From positions 1 through 64,000 of the forward strand of contig SEBU01000002.1 in the NCBI GenBank assembly GCA_004173475.1: DNA of 64,000 nt. The letters run 5' to 3'. The stretch comes from Gammaproteobacteria bacterium. GTDB lineage: Bacteria; Pseudomonadota; Gammaproteobacteria; Pseudomonadales; Cellvibrionaceae. A program made the position numbers and the translations under genes. Numbering within the stretch: position 1 is the stretch's first letter; every line of letters starts with the position of its first letter. This document shows, in pieces, positions 20,662 through 28,094 of this stretch. The notes beneath the pieces were generated by a model. It had not been told where the DNA came from. It saw only the letters and a program-made list of their open reading frames with translations, and did no database searches.

Positions 20662-20816
20662 CGTCGATCAAGATTTATTGTTGTAATAAACGCCCTGGTC
20701 ATTTCCACAAATTTATATGAATGTCTTAAAAATAATTTATATTCATATTTAGGGATCTGTCAGGGCTAAAAACCTGCTTGATATTGCAATTCATAGTTGT
20801 CTAAGGGGCCATATTG

Positions 20817-21605
20817 ATGATGCATCTTCTCAGCGACTTAAATGATTTCGTCATAGACGCTAATGATGGCAAGATCGGTAAGGTTAAGGATTTTTATTTT
20901 GACGACAGACGATGGGTGATCCGCTACGTCGTTGTTGAAATTAATTCAGGTATAGGAAATCGTAAAATTCTTCTTTCTCCCTCGTTAATTAAACATCTAA
21001 ACCTTGAGGAAAAATCTATAGCGGTAGATATGTCAGTAGCTGAAATCAGCAGCAGTACCGCTATTGATACCACTTTTTCAGTTTCGCAATATGAAATTGA
21101 TTATCTTAGTTACTACGGTTACGCGTTTTTTGGGGACAATAAGACTGTAGAGAATAATGAGGATGACACAAATTCTGTTGAGCAAACTTCGCATAAAGCC
21201 GACGATGTTTTTGTCGCTATTGACAGTGTACGTCGTATGCATGGCGACCGTCATTTGCGCAGCTGCTGCGAAATTGTTAATTATCATATCCAGGCGAATG
21301 ACGGTGAGATAGGTCGTTTAAAGACGATGCTGATTGATGACGACAATTGGGCTATCCAATGCTTCGTTACCACAACAAGTGATTTGTGGTTTGGTCATCA
21401 GGTGCTTTTAAAACCTCAGGCCATCAAAGATATCAGTTGGGGAAATGCAAAAATATACGTTGGTATGACTCAACAACAAGTTAAAGAGGCGCCTTTATTT
21501 GACCTATCTCCTATTCAAAAACCACGTTACGAGTTAGGCGTTTATTTGCATCAAGAGCAGAACAGTTACGGCAAGACGGAGACAGACGCTCGACAAATTA
21601 ATTAG
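20817..21605 (+). CDS. Protein with two PRC-barrel domains
   Basis: About 262 residues from the ATG at 20817 (AAGGGG about 8 nt upstream; adjacent TTG and ATG codons are alternatives). Two PRC-barrel units are visible. The first has VIDANDGKIGKVKDFYFDD and VIRYVVVEI, the second HIQANDGEIGRLKTMLIDD and WAIQCFV. An acidic linker (about residues 105-130) joins them. There are no membrane segments, so it is cytoplasmic. PRC barrels occur in RimM, photosynthetic reaction centre subunit H and many stress-linked proteins. The specific role here is unknown. Confidence 0.8.
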   Translation: MMHLLSDLNDFVIDANDGKIGKVKDFYFDDRRWVIRYVVVEINSGIGNRKILLSPSLIKHLNLEEKSIAVDMSVAEISSSTAIDTTFSVSQYEIDYLSYYGYAFFGDNKTVENNEDDTNSVEQTSHKADDVFVAIDSVRRMHGDRHLRSCCEIVNYHIQANDGEIGRLKTMLIDDDNWAIQCFVTTTSDLWFGHQVLLKPQAIKDISWGNAKIYVGMTQQQVKEAPLFDLSPIQKPRYELGVYLHQEQNSYGKTETDARQIN

Positions 21606-22796: not shown

Positions 22797-23813
<1,017 letters not shown>

Positions 23814-23815
23814 AT

Positions 23816-23845
23816 AAAAAAAGCCGACGCGAGTCGGCTTTTTTT
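23816..23845 (+). terminator. Rho-independent terminator after cysB
   Basis: GCCGAC-GCGA-GTCGGC is flanked by A7 and T7, a standard intrinsic terminator directly after the cysB stop. Confidence 0.92.
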
Positions 23846-23930
23846 ATTTAATCTCTTTAAATTCAATCGGTTGAACGAATAAGTTAAAGTAAGTGACTAT
23901 CTTCCATGAGTTTCTGCTTGTCTAAATAGT

Positions 23931-23954
23931 TGTACAATTTTGTTGATTTGTATA
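23931..23954. promoter_or_regulatory. LitR/PplR1-like operator, upstream copy
   Basis: TGTACA, 12 bp, TGTATA. This fits the consensus I recall for the class II LitR protein PplR1 of Pseudomonas putida, T(G/A)TACA-N12-TGTA(C/T)A. It lies ahead of a gene set that itself encodes a class II LitR-like regulator and a photolyase. Confidence 0.75.
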
Positions 23955-23971
23955 GCTATTGGACGTATAAC
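23943..23971 (+). promoter_or_regulatory. Candidate sigma-70 promoter of the photolyase operon
   Basis: A -35-like TTGATT (23943-23948) and a -10-like TATAAC (23966-23971) are separated by 17 bp. The promoter elements are interleaved with the two operators, so bound regulator would block RNA polymerase. The start would fall near 23978, giving a short leader of about 30 nt. Confidence 0.5.
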
Positions 23972-23972
23972 T

Positions 23973-23996
23973 TGTACATTAATTAACTCTTGTATA
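23973..23996. promoter_or_regulatory. LitR/PplR1-like operator, downstream copy
   Basis: A second TGTACA-N12-TGTATA with the same half-sites and spacing, offset exactly 42 bp from the first (about four helical turns). It ends 11 bp before the first gene's ATG and would overlap the transcription start. Confidence 0.75.
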
Positions 23997-24007
23997 AGTA
24001 TAAACCA

Positions 24008-24964
24008 ATGAAAAAAATTCCACTCGGCGTGAGCCAATGTCTATTAGGTGAACCAGTCAGGTTTGATGGTGGGCACAAGCGCAATGCATTTCTTATTGAT
24101 GTTCTTTCTAATTATGTTGAATTCCAGCCGGTCTGCCCGGAAGTCGCAATCGGTCTAGGCATTCCCCGCAAGCCCATTAGGCTCATTGTCACTGATGGTG
24201 AGGATCGTATTCGAGGTATCGAAAATTCCGATTTGGATGTTACTGATGGTTTATATCGCGAAGCTGAGAAAGCGGCTGGTCAAATGCCCGATATTTGTGG
24301 CTATGTATTCATGCAAAAATCCCCGAGCTGCGCCGTGTTCGGGCTTAAACGTTACGGCACCAATGGCTATTCAATCGATAGCCGTGGACGAGGCGCTTAC
24401 GCAAAACGGTTTATGGAATTAATGCCGTTAATTCCGGTAGAAGAAGCAGGGCGTTTGGTTGATGCCGGATTACGTGAAAATTTTATCGCACGCATTTTTG
24501 CGCTCCAGGATTGGCGAGAAAATTTGCAGCATGAGCCAACTGCAAAAAAATTGGTCGAGTTTTATTCCCGCTATAAATATCAGGTTATGGCCCACCATGT
24601 GCCGAGCTATTTTTTAATTGGAAAATTATTAGCAAACTTGTCTGAGCATCCCATCGCGGATACAAATAATAAATTCATAAGCTTACTCATGTCCGCCCTC
24701 GGCCACCCCGCGACCCGCAAGGGAAACGCTAACGCCATGATGCATTTGCGCGGCTACTTGAAGCATCACATTAGTAGTTTGTCGAAACAAGAATTGAGTC
24801 AGCTTATTGAATCTTATGCGAAAGGAGTTGTGCCATTAGTAGTTCCGCTCACCTTACTAAAACACCATTTGATGACGTTGGATAATCCTTATTTGAAAAA
24901 CCAAACCTTCTGGTCGCCCTACCCGGAAGAGTTGGGTTTACGTAATGTCGTGTTGAGCGTTTGA
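24008..24964 (+). CDS. DUF523-DUF1722 (YbgA-like) two-domain protein
   Basis: About 318 residues from the ATG at 24008; a TTG at 23990 would lie inside the operator. The N-terminal DUF523 half shows GVSQCLLGEPVRFDGGHKR, PVCPEV and KSPSCAVFG, whose Cys residues match the cluster-binding cysteines of the TudS thiouracil desulfurase branch of DUF523. The C-terminal half is DUF1722/YbgA (SRYKYQVMAHH...GK). In E. coli ybgA neighbours phr, and here the gene heads a merR-phrB operon. A role beside photorepair, perhaps on thiolated bases, is inference. Confidence 0.8.
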   Translation: MKKIPLGVSQCLLGEPVRFDGGHKRNAFLIDVLSNYVEFQPVCPEVAIGLGIPRKPIRLIVTDGEDRIRGIENSDLDVTDGLYREAEKAAGQMPDICGYVFMQKSPSCAVFGLKRYGTNGYSIDSRGRGAYAKRFMELMPLIPVEEAGRLVDAGLRENFIARIFALQDWRENLQHEPTAKKLVEFYSRYKYQVMAHHVPSYFLIGKLLANLSEHPIADTNNKFISLLMSALGHPATRKGNANAMMHLRGYLKHHISSLSKQELSQLIESYAKGVVPLVVPLTLLKHHLMTLDNPYLKNQTFWSPYPEELGLRNVVLSV

Positions 24965-24965
24965 T

Positions 24966-25853
24966 ATGGAAGCCACTATTCCAATTCGCGAGATTTCACG
25001 TCTTACCGGCGTAAACAGCGTGACCCTTCGTGCCTGGGAGCGACGCTACGGTTTGATTAAACCTTTGCGAACTAATAAAGGCCACCGACTTTATCGCGCT
25101 GAAGATATCGAATTAATTAAAACAATTCAGGCGTGGCTTGCACGCGGTTTAGCCATTGGCAAAGTTAGCGAATTACTGGAATCTGGATCGCAATCGGCCG
25201 ATATGGATATTGAAAATACCTGGCAAGGTTTTCACGTTGAGCTTATGGCTATTATGAGTGAGCTGAATGTTGGAAAATTGGAAGCTTTTTTTAATCAATT
25301 ATTTTCCATCTATCCCGCAGCGATTATTGCCGACCAACTAATTACGCCTGCATTGGATAACTTATCGCAAAACGTTTTTGGTTCAAATGTAAAAAAATCG
25401 ATCCTCATTAATAGATTGTCTGAATATTTATTGATGTTAATTCAGCGCCAACGGCAGCAAGCCAATGGCAAGCGAGTGGCCATCATTCAATTAACGTCCG
25501 CAATTGATCCTACACTTAATGTGCTCATGCATTATGGTTTGGTGATGAGCCAATTTAAATCAGAAATAATTGGTTTGGTAACTGCTAACGAAGTCGTATT
25601 TGCTATTGAGCAGCTACAACTTGATGGCTTAATTATTTATAACGATTCCTGTTCAAGCCTTACAAATTTTGAAAGGGAATTAGCGCAACTGGGGCACCTA
25701 GTAAACATCCCCCTTGTAATTGGCGGCAAACTTGTTCAGGTACTCACTGCTGACTTTTCGTCTCACATTTATTTAGCAAGTGCGTCAGGGCAGCAAGCAG
25801 TATATTTACAGCTACATAAATTATTGGGTAATTCCAGCGAAGAGGAATTGTAA
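24966..25853 (+). CDS. MerR-family class II LitR-like light regulator
   Basis: This 295-residue protein has an N-terminal MerR HTH (about 6-75; SVTLRAWERRYGLIKPLR, then GHRLYRAEDIELI) joined to a CarH/LitR-like C-terminal region (about 90-285). The C-terminal part keeps the helical-bundle and Rossmann layout. It lacks the W...EH and ExHxxG-type motifs that hold adenosylcobalamin in class I LitR and CarH. It therefore fits class II LitR proteins, which control photolyase genes through a partner photoreceptor in Pseudomonas. It starts 1 bp after the upstream stop and overlaps phrB by one base. Probably it represses its own operon through the two upstream operators. Confidence 0.8.
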   Translation: MEATIPIREISRLTGVNSVTLRAWERRYGLIKPLRTNKGHRLYRAEDIELIKTIQAWLARGLAIGKVSELLESGSQSADMDIENTWQGFHVELMAIMSELNVGKLEAFFNQLFSIYPAAIIADQLITPALDNLSQNVFGSNVKKSILINRLSEYLLMLIQRQRQQANGKRVAIIQLTSAIDPTLNVLMHYGLVMSQFKSEIIGLVTANEVVFAIEQLQLDGLIIYNDSCSSLTNFERELAQLGHLVNIPLVIGGKLVQVLTADFSSHIYLASASGQQAVYLQLHKLLGNSSEEEL

Positions 25854-27277
25854 TGGTCGCATCACGTTTTAAACATATCGTCTGGTTTAGAAATGATTTG
25901 CGTATTTATGACAACCCAGCGTTATTTCGCGCCGCCGAGGAGCAGGAAGGTGTTTTAGCGGTTTATTTTATTTGCCATGAAATGTTGGAAAATCATGTCA
26001 CAGCATCTGTACGAATAGATTTTATTCGCCGCCACCTTTTGCAACTTAATAATGACCTTGCGGAATTGAATATTCCTTTAGTGGTTATTTCTACTGATAA
26101 AACTAAAGAAATAATTCCACAGTTAAAAAAACTAATAGATAAGTATCAGGTTGAGGGATTATTCTTAAACGCTGAATATCCTATCGACGAATTTAACCGC
26201 GACAAACAGGTTGCCGATGAGTTGCGCAAGCAAGAGATTGTGGTAAAGCGATCTCATGATCGAGTTATTATTCCGCCGGGGATGATCAGGAATGGCAAAG
26301 GTGAACCCTATAAAGTATTCACGGCGTTTAAAAAAAATTGGCTTCAACAGGCGAGAGCGCTAGCACTTGAGCCCTTGAAAAAGCCGAAAACGCAACCTCC
26401 GCATGGCGCTACTGTAATAACAGATGCAGAAATTAATAAACAATTCAAAACACTTGAGCAACGCGATTTATCCAAGCTGTGGCCTGCTGGTGAGAAAGAA
26501 GCGGCCAAACGGCTTAAAGCATTTATAAAAAATCATATTCATGATTACGACACAGGGCGAGACTTTCCAGACCTTGACGGTACATCTCAACTATCCCCTT
26601 ATTTAGCAATAGGCAGCATCTCACCGCGGCAATGTATAGCGGCAGCTTTGCATGCAAATCGTGGCGAATTGGATTCAGGCAATGCGGGCGTTACGACATG
26701 GATTGGTGAATTAATTTGGCGCGACTTCTATCAACATGTAGTGGTGGATTTTCCTGACGTTTGTAAATATAAAGCCATGCAAAAACACACCGAAGCTTTT
26801 CCCTGGCGTTACGATAAATCCTTATTTAATGCCTGGTGCGATGGTGAGACGGGTATACCCATAGTTGATGCCGCCATGCTGCAGCTAAAGGATACGGGAT
26901 GGATGCATAACCGATTGCGAATGGTTGTCGCTATGTTTCTGACCAAAAATTTGCAAATCGACTGGCGCATGGGCGAGCGATATTTTATGACGCAACTGAT
27001 TGATGGTGATTTTGCCGCAAACAATGGTGGGTGGCAGTGGAGCGCTTCTACCGGAACCGACGCGGCACCTTATTTTCGAATTTTTAATCCTGTGAGCCAA
27101 TCCCAGCGCTTTGATGCCGATGGAGCTTTTATCCGTCGGTATTTACCCGCACTAGCCAAAGTGCCTGCGAAAGTTATTCATAGCCCTCCGCCCACACCCG
27201 GTTATTCATTACCCATTGTTGACTTGTCGCTAAGTCGAAAGGAAACTATCGCGCTTTTTGGTGCACTAAAGAGTTGA
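25853..27277 (+). CDS. phrB: Deoxyribodipyrimidine photolyase (class I CPD)
   Basis: This 474-residue flavoprotein splits UV-induced cyclobutane pyrimidine dimers with blue-light energy. The N-terminal antenna domain starts with IVWFRNDLRIYDNPAL. The C-terminal FAD domain includes GELIWRDFYQHV, GIPIVDAAMLQLKDTGWMHNRLRM, FAANNGGWQWSASTGTDAAPYFRIFNP and a Trp-rich electron path. The TAATG overlap with the MerR gene indicates translational coupling. It is the last gene of the operon. Confidence 0.95.
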   Translation: MVASRFKHIVWFRNDLRIYDNPALFRAAEEQEGVLAVYFICHEMLENHVTASVRIDFIRRHLLQLNNDLAELNIPLVVISTDKTKEIIPQLKKLIDKYQVEGLFLNAEYPIDEFNRDKQVADELRKQEIVVKRSHDRVIIPPGMIRNGKGEPYKVFTAFKKNWLQQARALALEPLKKPKTQPPHGATVITDAEINKQFKTLEQRDLSKLWPAGEKEAAKRLKAFIKNHIHDYDTGRDFPDLDGTSQLSPYLAIGSISPRQCIAAALHANRGELDSGNAGVTTWIGELIWRDFYQHVVVDFPDVCKYKAMQKHTEAFPWRYDKSLFNAWCDGETGIPIVDAAMLQLKDTGWMHNRLRMVVAMFLTKNLQIDWRMGERYFMTQLIDGDFAANNGGWQWSASTGTDAAPYFRIFNPVSQSQRFDADGAFIRRYLPALAKVPAKVIHSPPPTPGYSLPIVDLSLSRKETIALFGALKS

Positions 27278-27365: not shown

Positions 27366-28094
27366 ATGAATAAATTCAAATTTCAATATTTATGCGGTGC
27401 CGTGGTGTTGTCAATCTTAGCCTCGGTTGTTATGGCTGATGATAGCTATTCGGTTTCTGGTTCGGCCTATAGTCTAAAAACCGGAAAAGTGGTTTACCGG
27501 GAGTTATTCACCGGCTTAGATGGTAATAACGAAGTGCATGTGAATTACGCTAAACCGGATGGCGTTATTTTTGCTCGGAAAAAGCTGAATTACAACACGG
27601 AAGTATTTCAACCTGGTCTGGAATTTAACGATGAGCGCGACAATGAACTGGTATCAGCTGCATTCGATGGCGGCCGTTTATTGCTCACCCATAAAATAAA
27701 AGGTGATTCGCAAACGAAAACTATTTATGAAACCTCAAAGCTAATTATTGATGCGGGCGTTGACGCATTTATTCAGCAACAATGGGCGAGAATTACATCA
27801 AGCAAAAAAGTCGAGTTCGATGTGGCTGACGCGCGTCATTTAGGTGTTGAAAAATTTGTGATCAAAGAAATTGATTCCAGTGCGTCTCCTTTGGCATATA
27901 AAGGTGCTGGCGAAAAATGGAAATATTTTAGAGTAGATACTGCAAATAAATTGTCATCCATATTTGTGGAGCCTATTTATTATGCGTATGAGCCGGACGG
28001 AAAATACCTGATGCGTTATCAAGGGCGTTCAAATATAGATGATGATTCAGGCGATTCGTGGGACGTTCGAATTGAATACGAATATTTTAACTAA
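27366..28094 (+). CDS. Secreted protein of unknown function
   Basis: This 242-residue protein has a signal peptide (hydrophobic about 9-23, cleavage after VVMA). The mature part is beta-rich, opening with DSYSVSGSAYSLKTGKVVYRELF and ending with RIEYEYFN. A central KLIIDAGVDAFIQQQW segment is helical. The YSLKTGKVVYRE opening resembles periplasmic proteins of marine gammaproteobacteria without assigned function. GAGGGG precedes the ATG. It stands alone between phrB and the convergent sulfurtransferase gene. Confidence 0.65.
   Translation: MNKFKFQYLCGAVVLSILASVVMADDSYSVSGSAYSLKTGKVVYRELFTGLDGNNEVHVNYAKPDGVIFARKKLNYNTEVFQPGLEFNDERDNELVSAAFDGGRLLLTHKIKGDSQTKTIYETSKLIIDAGVDAFIQQQWARITSSKKVEFDVADARHLGVEKFVIKEIDSSASPLAYKGAGEKWKYFRVDTANKLSSIFVEPIYYAYEPDGKYLMRYQGRSNIDDDSGDSWDVRIEYEYFN

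Follow-up and report, generated by a model that had tools for sequence, protein, structure and literature searches.

A conserved pair of predicted MerR operator sites interleaved with the putative promoter of a rudS-merR-phrB operon in a genus of Cellvibrionaceae

Two copies of the motif TGTACA-N12-TGTATA precede a rudS-merR-phrB operon in the analysed window, a stretch of 64,000 nucleotides from a gammaproteobacterium of the Cellvibrionaceae (assembly GCA_004173475.1, contig SEBU01000002.1, positions 1 to 64,000 of the forward strand). We consider it likely that the MerR protein encoded in the operon uses the pair as a tandem operator, which is interleaved with a sigma-70 promoter and where repression is released by a stimulus, most likely light. 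The observations reported here are the sequence of the pair, its conservation, its non-intact state where no MerR protein was found and the predicted fold of the MerR protein. The pair is real and conserved, and as an operator it is probably autoregulatory.

Site 1 (TGTACA-ATTTTGTTGATT-TGTATA, 23931..23954, + strand) and site 2 (TGTACA-TTAATTAACTCT-TGTATA, 23973..23996, + strand) both have exact half-sites and a 12-bp spacer. Half-sites, spacer length, positions and the offset of 42 bp were all as the first-pass annotation had given them, and the offset is indeed close to four DNA turns (4.0 turns at 10.5 bp). The motif also fits the consensus that had been given for PplR1 of P. putida, which PMC9758184 cites as T(G/A)TACA-N12-TGTA(C/T)A. 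The proposal that the sites are interleaved with a -35/-10 pair was borne out for a possible promoter: a putative -35 hexamer TTGATT (23943..23948, + strand) lies in the spacer of site 1, and a putative -10 hexamer TATAAC (23966..23971, + strand) follows after a 17-bp spacer and ends one base before site 2. Both elements were read from the sequence; the -10 hexamer is a weak match, with TAAAAC in many relatives, and the automatic promoter scan did not report a promoter for rudS-merR-phrB. Upstream, a LysR-type gene (22839-23813) is followed by a terminator-like hairpin (23811..23850, + strand; a pattern match only), which stands before the promoter. A PRC-barrel match was seen at 20814-21605, where by eye the second half resembles a repeat of the first.

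The listed start codon of rudS, TTG at 23990, falls inside site 2, and ATG at 24008 is preferred because the RudS-like frame opens after site 2 in relatives. The rudS-like gene (24008..24964, + strand) encodes a predicted tRNA 4-thiouridine desulfidase with a 2-thiouracil desulfurase domain (PF04463) and DUF1722 (PF08349). It is followed by merR (24966..25853, + strand), encoding a class II LitR-like regulator with a LitR/CarH-type predicted fold, and by phrB (25853..27277, + strand), encoding a deoxyribodipyrimidine photo-lyase (NCBIfam NF007955; score 516.6 bits, cut-off 506), the start codon of which overlaps the merR stop codon. Domain, fold and NF007955 matches agree in this respect, so that the earlier description of an operon for a LitR-like MerR protein and a photolyase stands. 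The operon probably serves the repair of sunlight damage, and RudS-LitR-PhrB has been named as a light-controlled operon (PMC11417400). No terminator-like site was found between phrB and the gene at 27366-28094, which may belong to the operon. The 242-residue protein encoded there, 3' of phrB, had no Pfam or NCBIfam match.

According to the mechanism that we favor, the operon's own MerR, a relative of class II LitR, would bind both sites as a tandem operator. The spacer of site 1 would carry the -35 element, and site 2, beginning one base after the -10 element, would cover the expected transcription start. Bound MerR would hide both promoter elements and thereby repress rudS-merR-phrB, merR itself included. 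A stimulus, most likely light, would release MerR, and RudS (tRNA 4-thiouridine removal) and PhrB (DNA photorepair) would rise together. Repression and its release by blue light are taken over from studied relatives; repression of the operon by MerR is supported indirectly, and light control of rudS-merR-phrB is plausible by the same analogy. If true, a single repressor would control both RudS and PhrB and so link the photoprotection of tRNA to that of DNA.

With a threshold of E<=1e-20 a MerR match was present in 47 of 144 family genomes and in 19 of 21 genus genomes including the window's own. Eighteen of the 19 genus proteins, the window's among them, group in a single fork of the tree (99/96), and their genomes are referred to as the clade; the protein of genome G017 nests in a Pseudomonas fork and was left out of the 18. 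Genome G032 was counted although its operon is split over two contigs, which were not joined (promoter via locus L098, MerR via locus L014). The composite TRTACA-N6-TTGnnn-TGTAYA-N17..19-TRTACA-N11..13-TGTAYA was present in 18/18 clade genomes; because it was drafted after viewing the clade loci it describes them and does not predict. Within site 1, TTG occupied positions 13-15 in every one of the 18. The offset was 42 bp in 14 genomes, 41 in three and 43 in one; the internal gap of site 1 was always 12 bp, and that of site 2 was 12 bp in 13, 13 bp in three and 11 bp in two. The N6 stretch is mostly A/T and variable like the bases farther upstream, and the six bases adjoining site 1 are partly conserved. 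In many clade genomes a TAAAAC/TATAAC-like hexamer ends one base 5' of site 2. Left half-sites of the clade tend to follow AAAACT or a similar sequence (23925-23930 and 23967-23972 in the window), and GGTTTT tends to come after site 2. Because these flanks recur, the half-site may extend beyond six bases, and the -10 hexamer may also serve as a flank of site 2.

A family-wide occurrence of the pair was not found. Among 28 loci of the family that belong to other genera, 13 of which reach about 1.5 kb upstream only, a site with a 12-bp gap and at most one mismatch was found in eight, and a pair was found in locus L031 only, at an offset of 49 bp.

Two genus genomes, G015 and G031, had no MerR match at E<=1e-20, yet rudS adjoins phr in both. 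In G031 no site with at most one mismatch and a gap of 11-13 bp was found in the stretch searched. G015 retains remnants, which follow the end of a LysR gene like that of the window, at an offset of 47 bp, with one half-site lost and one carrying a mismatch. Because the pair is intact in neither genome without a MerR match, these losses suggest that the operon's MerR is the protein that needs the paired sites. This conclusion rests on two genomes, and G021 partly counters it: there merR is apparently frameshifted (a 190-residue open frame with the rest in another frame, L064 2501-3820), while the operator pair is intact; G021 was nevertheless kept among the 18. A search of the window's own genome with its MerR protein at E<=0.001 found one other weak match, 30% identical, and a second regulator with the same specificity could still be an alternative binder of the sites. 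As a side observation, a short frame between rudS and phr of G015 (L267 2900-3320) resembles by eye the tail of the small gene after merR in L067.

The helix-turn-helix part of the MerR protein is close to that of LitR/CarH (PF13411, 2.2e-17; CarH structure 5c8d, 1.6e-14 over residues 6-62), and its residues are nearly invariant. The predicted C-terminal fold is of the cobalamin type, one of the marks of class II LitR. For the window's protein and two congeners no match to the B12-binding_2 domain (PF02607) was listed even with E values of up to 10 allowed, in a test where most matches above 0.1 are discarded by the HMMER filters, whereas two Pseudomonas relatives used as controls gave 7.7e-9 and 1.7e-5; for PmlR2 an internal B12-binding_2-like domain has been stated (PMC9758184). 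The cobalamin ligand motifs [DE]xHxxG and W-x9/10-EH were found in 0/18 clade proteins, a lack that fits class II LitR; outside the clade, alignment A1 held one protein with each motif (L012 and L069) and alignment A2 none in 30. Because these motifs are absent, an assignment of the window's MerR to class I LitR/CarH fails. The fold neighbours of the protein include the SCHIC domain of AppA, which ranked first. The AppA SCHIC domain binds heme. It was rejected as a clue to the ligand, since rank one reflects the shared fold and a fold search cannot name a ligand.

The first-pass annotation had also read the helical phasing of the sites as a sign of cooperativity. That the 42-bp offset places two MerR dimers on one face of the DNA for cooperative binding is possible, though in our view rather doubtful. 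The spacing of 41-43 bp is kept in 18/18 clade genomes, and two dimers of CarA bind cooperatively in Myxococcus xanthus (PMC9304148). However, Pseudomonas loci with the same type of operon and a MerR of the same family mostly have another spacing. A scan based on the MerR alignment gave at least 588 relatives, of which the best 80 were kept, with records near the window's genome possibly left out by the tool; 54 of these 80 were Pseudomonas by title. A pair with at most two mismatches in all was found in 50 of the 54, at offsets of 50 bp in 37, 49 in seven, 51 in three and 45, 46 and 52 once each; a single re-draw of each upstream stretch gave a pair in 0/54. Because 47 of the 54 Pseudomonas loci among the best 80 of at least 588 relatives thus keep 49-51 bp, or about 4.8 turns, a phasing of four turns is no general rule. 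Moreover, the geometry of a sigma-70 promoter would set 42 bp too, namely by a -35 element at position 13 of site 1, the 17-bp spacer, the -10 element, one base and site 2, and in 5/18 clade genomes site 2 has an internal gap of 11 or 13 bp.

The Pseudomonas loci argue for the preferred reading, a tandem operator of the operon's MerR, by analogy with a studied promoter. Thirty loci of the best 80 of at least 588 relatives, all Pseudomonas by title, had an exact pair at offset 50; in 30/30 TTGACT stood in site 1 in the same register as the -35 hexamer of the window, and the order was TTGACT, N16, mostly TATGAT, ten bases and site 2. The promoter P6650 of P. mendocina has TTGACT-N16-TATGAT as its -35/-10 elements, with Site 1 overlapping the -35 element and Site 2 between start point and start codon. 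The class II LitR protein PmlR2 was footprinted on these two sites and represses P6650, from which it is released by a LOV protein in blue light in vitro (PMC9758184). In Halomonas a pair was found in 0/15 loci. A Pseudomonas-like system occurs within the window's genus: the operon MerR of G017 falls inside the Pseudomonas protein fork (100/98), the offset is 48 bp, the -35 hexamer is TTGACT, and the system was perhaps acquired by transfer. In this genome the operon consists of rudS and merR, with a photolyase match elsewhere, and a short LOV gene lies beside a second MerR gene (L067 2978-3430 and 1834-2928), whose product groups with two Pseudomonas proteins adjoining LOV genes. Because G017 combines the 48-bp offset, TTGACT, a short LOV and a Pseudomonas-nested MerR, both formats can be compared inside one genus. 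The tandem operator is a readable mark of LitR-type promoters, with at least two formats, of about 50 and 42 bp.

A photoreceptor for the window's system was sought with the short LOV protein of G017 as query. A close short LOV (E<=2.4e-57) was present in 16 of 20 named control genomes, one of them (G144) with an internal stop, and in one of 21 genus genomes, G017 itself as the source of the query. The window's own genome had no short LOV match at E<=1e-8. At this threshold 10/21 genus genomes matched the query in some way, and all matches except the LOV of G017 were weak PAS matches in long frames; the six loci read (L240, L241, L244-L246 and L250) had no [ND]CR motif, the matches of G016, G027 and G029 and the second of G024 lying outside this reading. 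Two DNA patterns were discarded. The pattern GxNCRFLQ (0/21 genus genomes) is invalid as a test because short LOVs read DCRFLQ and only 1/20 named control genomes matched, and a looser LOV pattern gave background-like numbers among the matches listed. Pair format and short LOV do not go together strictly in Pseudomonas: in P. congelans (L187) a 50-bp pair, with one mismatch, occurs without a close short LOV, and P. aeruginosa PA7 (L116) has neither pair nor close short LOV. With no short LOV and no cobalamin ligand motif the light input is left without an account, and a format without LOV points to another kind of input for a widespread family of light regulators; the PmlR2 paper assumes unidentified photo-response mechanisms in LitR/CarH homologs (PMC9758184).

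The operators may be real while the signal is not light. MerR would then answer a different cue, such as near-UV or oxidative damage, or a ligand such as heme in its cobalamin-type fold, and the photolyase would be one output of a stress response. Besides the failure to find a short LOV or ligand motifs, this reading can draw on the curli regulator MlrA, which uses the same class of motif (PMC3509220), and on the AppA SCHIC domain among the fold neighbours. We consider it unlikely, for the cargo of a photolyase and a 4-thiouridine desulfidase suits light or near-UV, studied operons of the same type are controlled by blue light (PMC9758184, PMC11417400), and the genome does encode two short BLUF proteins.

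One of these BLUF proteins could act as an anti-repressor in the manner of BluF of E. coli, which frees BluR from its operator (PMC3509220). The first is a protein of 139 residues (L105 1495-1914, contig C15), and the second is a BLUF match elsewhere on this contig (104949-105224). We give this reading a small chance. BLUF proteins were found in 10/21 genus genomes and in 9/18 clade genomes only, and six of the nine clade genomes without one are at least 94% complete, so that neither LOV nor BLUF is a general part of the clade format. In addition, a stretch of 3.3 kb around the L105 gene contained no exact site with a gap of 11-13 bp.

A further reading, which we regard as quite improbable, is a stripped-down class II LitR switch with one promoter and one operon, without B12 and without a short LOV, to which a novel partner or ligand brings the light signal. 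Candidate inputs would be the flavin-bearing photolyase of the operon, as both sensor and anti-repressor, or a novel ligand bound by the cobalamin-type fold.

That the pair is a mere product of chance can be dismissed: the intergenic stretch of 195 bp is 70% A+T, but first-order Markov re-draws (n=20,000) gave at least one site once and two or more sites never, which together with the conservation in 18/18 clade genomes already refutes it. In the genome of 4.73 Mb the pattern TRTACA-N12-TGTAYA occurred at two exact places, both being these sites, and a reversed control pattern at none. With one mismatch allowed there were 17 places, the two sites and 15 others, against 20 for the control, so that the 15 are background. 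Within the window, a scan with two mismatches gave five matches against 4.2 expected, which is not significant alone; four of the five were the two sites on both strands. Across the 21 genus genomes 41 exact places were found against 17 for the control, 33 of them at the rudS-merR promoter and eight elsewhere, as assigned from listed coordinates. The eight places off the operon compare with 17 for the control, and exact matching in the genus gave no sign of a wider regulon that takes in further light genes. Hence the motif is not scattered at random, in keeping with the earlier expectation, but it does not spread before other light genes either.

The closest known system is PmlR2/PmSB-LOV at P6650 (PMC9758184), which has two TRTACA-N12-TGTAYA sites with site 1 over the -35 element, a photolyase and a LitR gene in the operon region and a LitR/CarH family protein, as in the window. 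The clade differs by its offset of 41-43 bp, as against mostly 49-51 bp in the Pseudomonas kind among the best 80 of at least 588 relatives, and by site 2, which begins one base after the -10 element in the window and about ten bases after it in the Pseudomonas kind. Further differences are the short LOV sensor, which was not found in the window's genome, and the exact-match regulon of one promoter, compared with 19 light-inducible genes in P. putida (PMC9758184). The RudS-LitR-PhrB operons of PMC11417400 consist of the same three kinds of genes; operators are not treated in its passages on them. BluR and MlrA of E. coli are MerR proteins with half-sites of the GTACA type like those of the window: BluR reads GTACA half-sites, covers the -35 region, which may be compared with site 1, and is a MerR-like protein released from its operator by BluF, and the MlrA site is TGTACA(12N)TGCACA. 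They differ in their cargo, in BluF being a BLUF-EAL protein and in having one site per promoter as described (PMC3509220). The label of light regulator in the first-pass annotation cannot be derived from the motif, since the curli regulator MlrA and BluR use the same type of motif. CarH, a class I LitR, and its paralogue CarA have a fold in common with the window's MerR, operators over the -35 or -10 element and TnnACA half-sites, which TGTACA fits on both strands; CarH, however, uses tandem 11-bp direct repeats and B12 photosensing (PMC9304148), as against half-sites that are inverted and separated by 12 bp in the window, where the MerR shows no cobalamin ligand motif. Literature on a 42-bp paired operator or on a class II LitR without LOV was not found among the papers listed from an open-access subset, which is weak evidence of absence. 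Compared with the Pseudomonas format, site 2 of the window lies about 8 bp closer to the promoter. Taken together, the paired operator itself is already known from PmlR2/P6650, and it is the 42-bp spacing format of the pair that is new.
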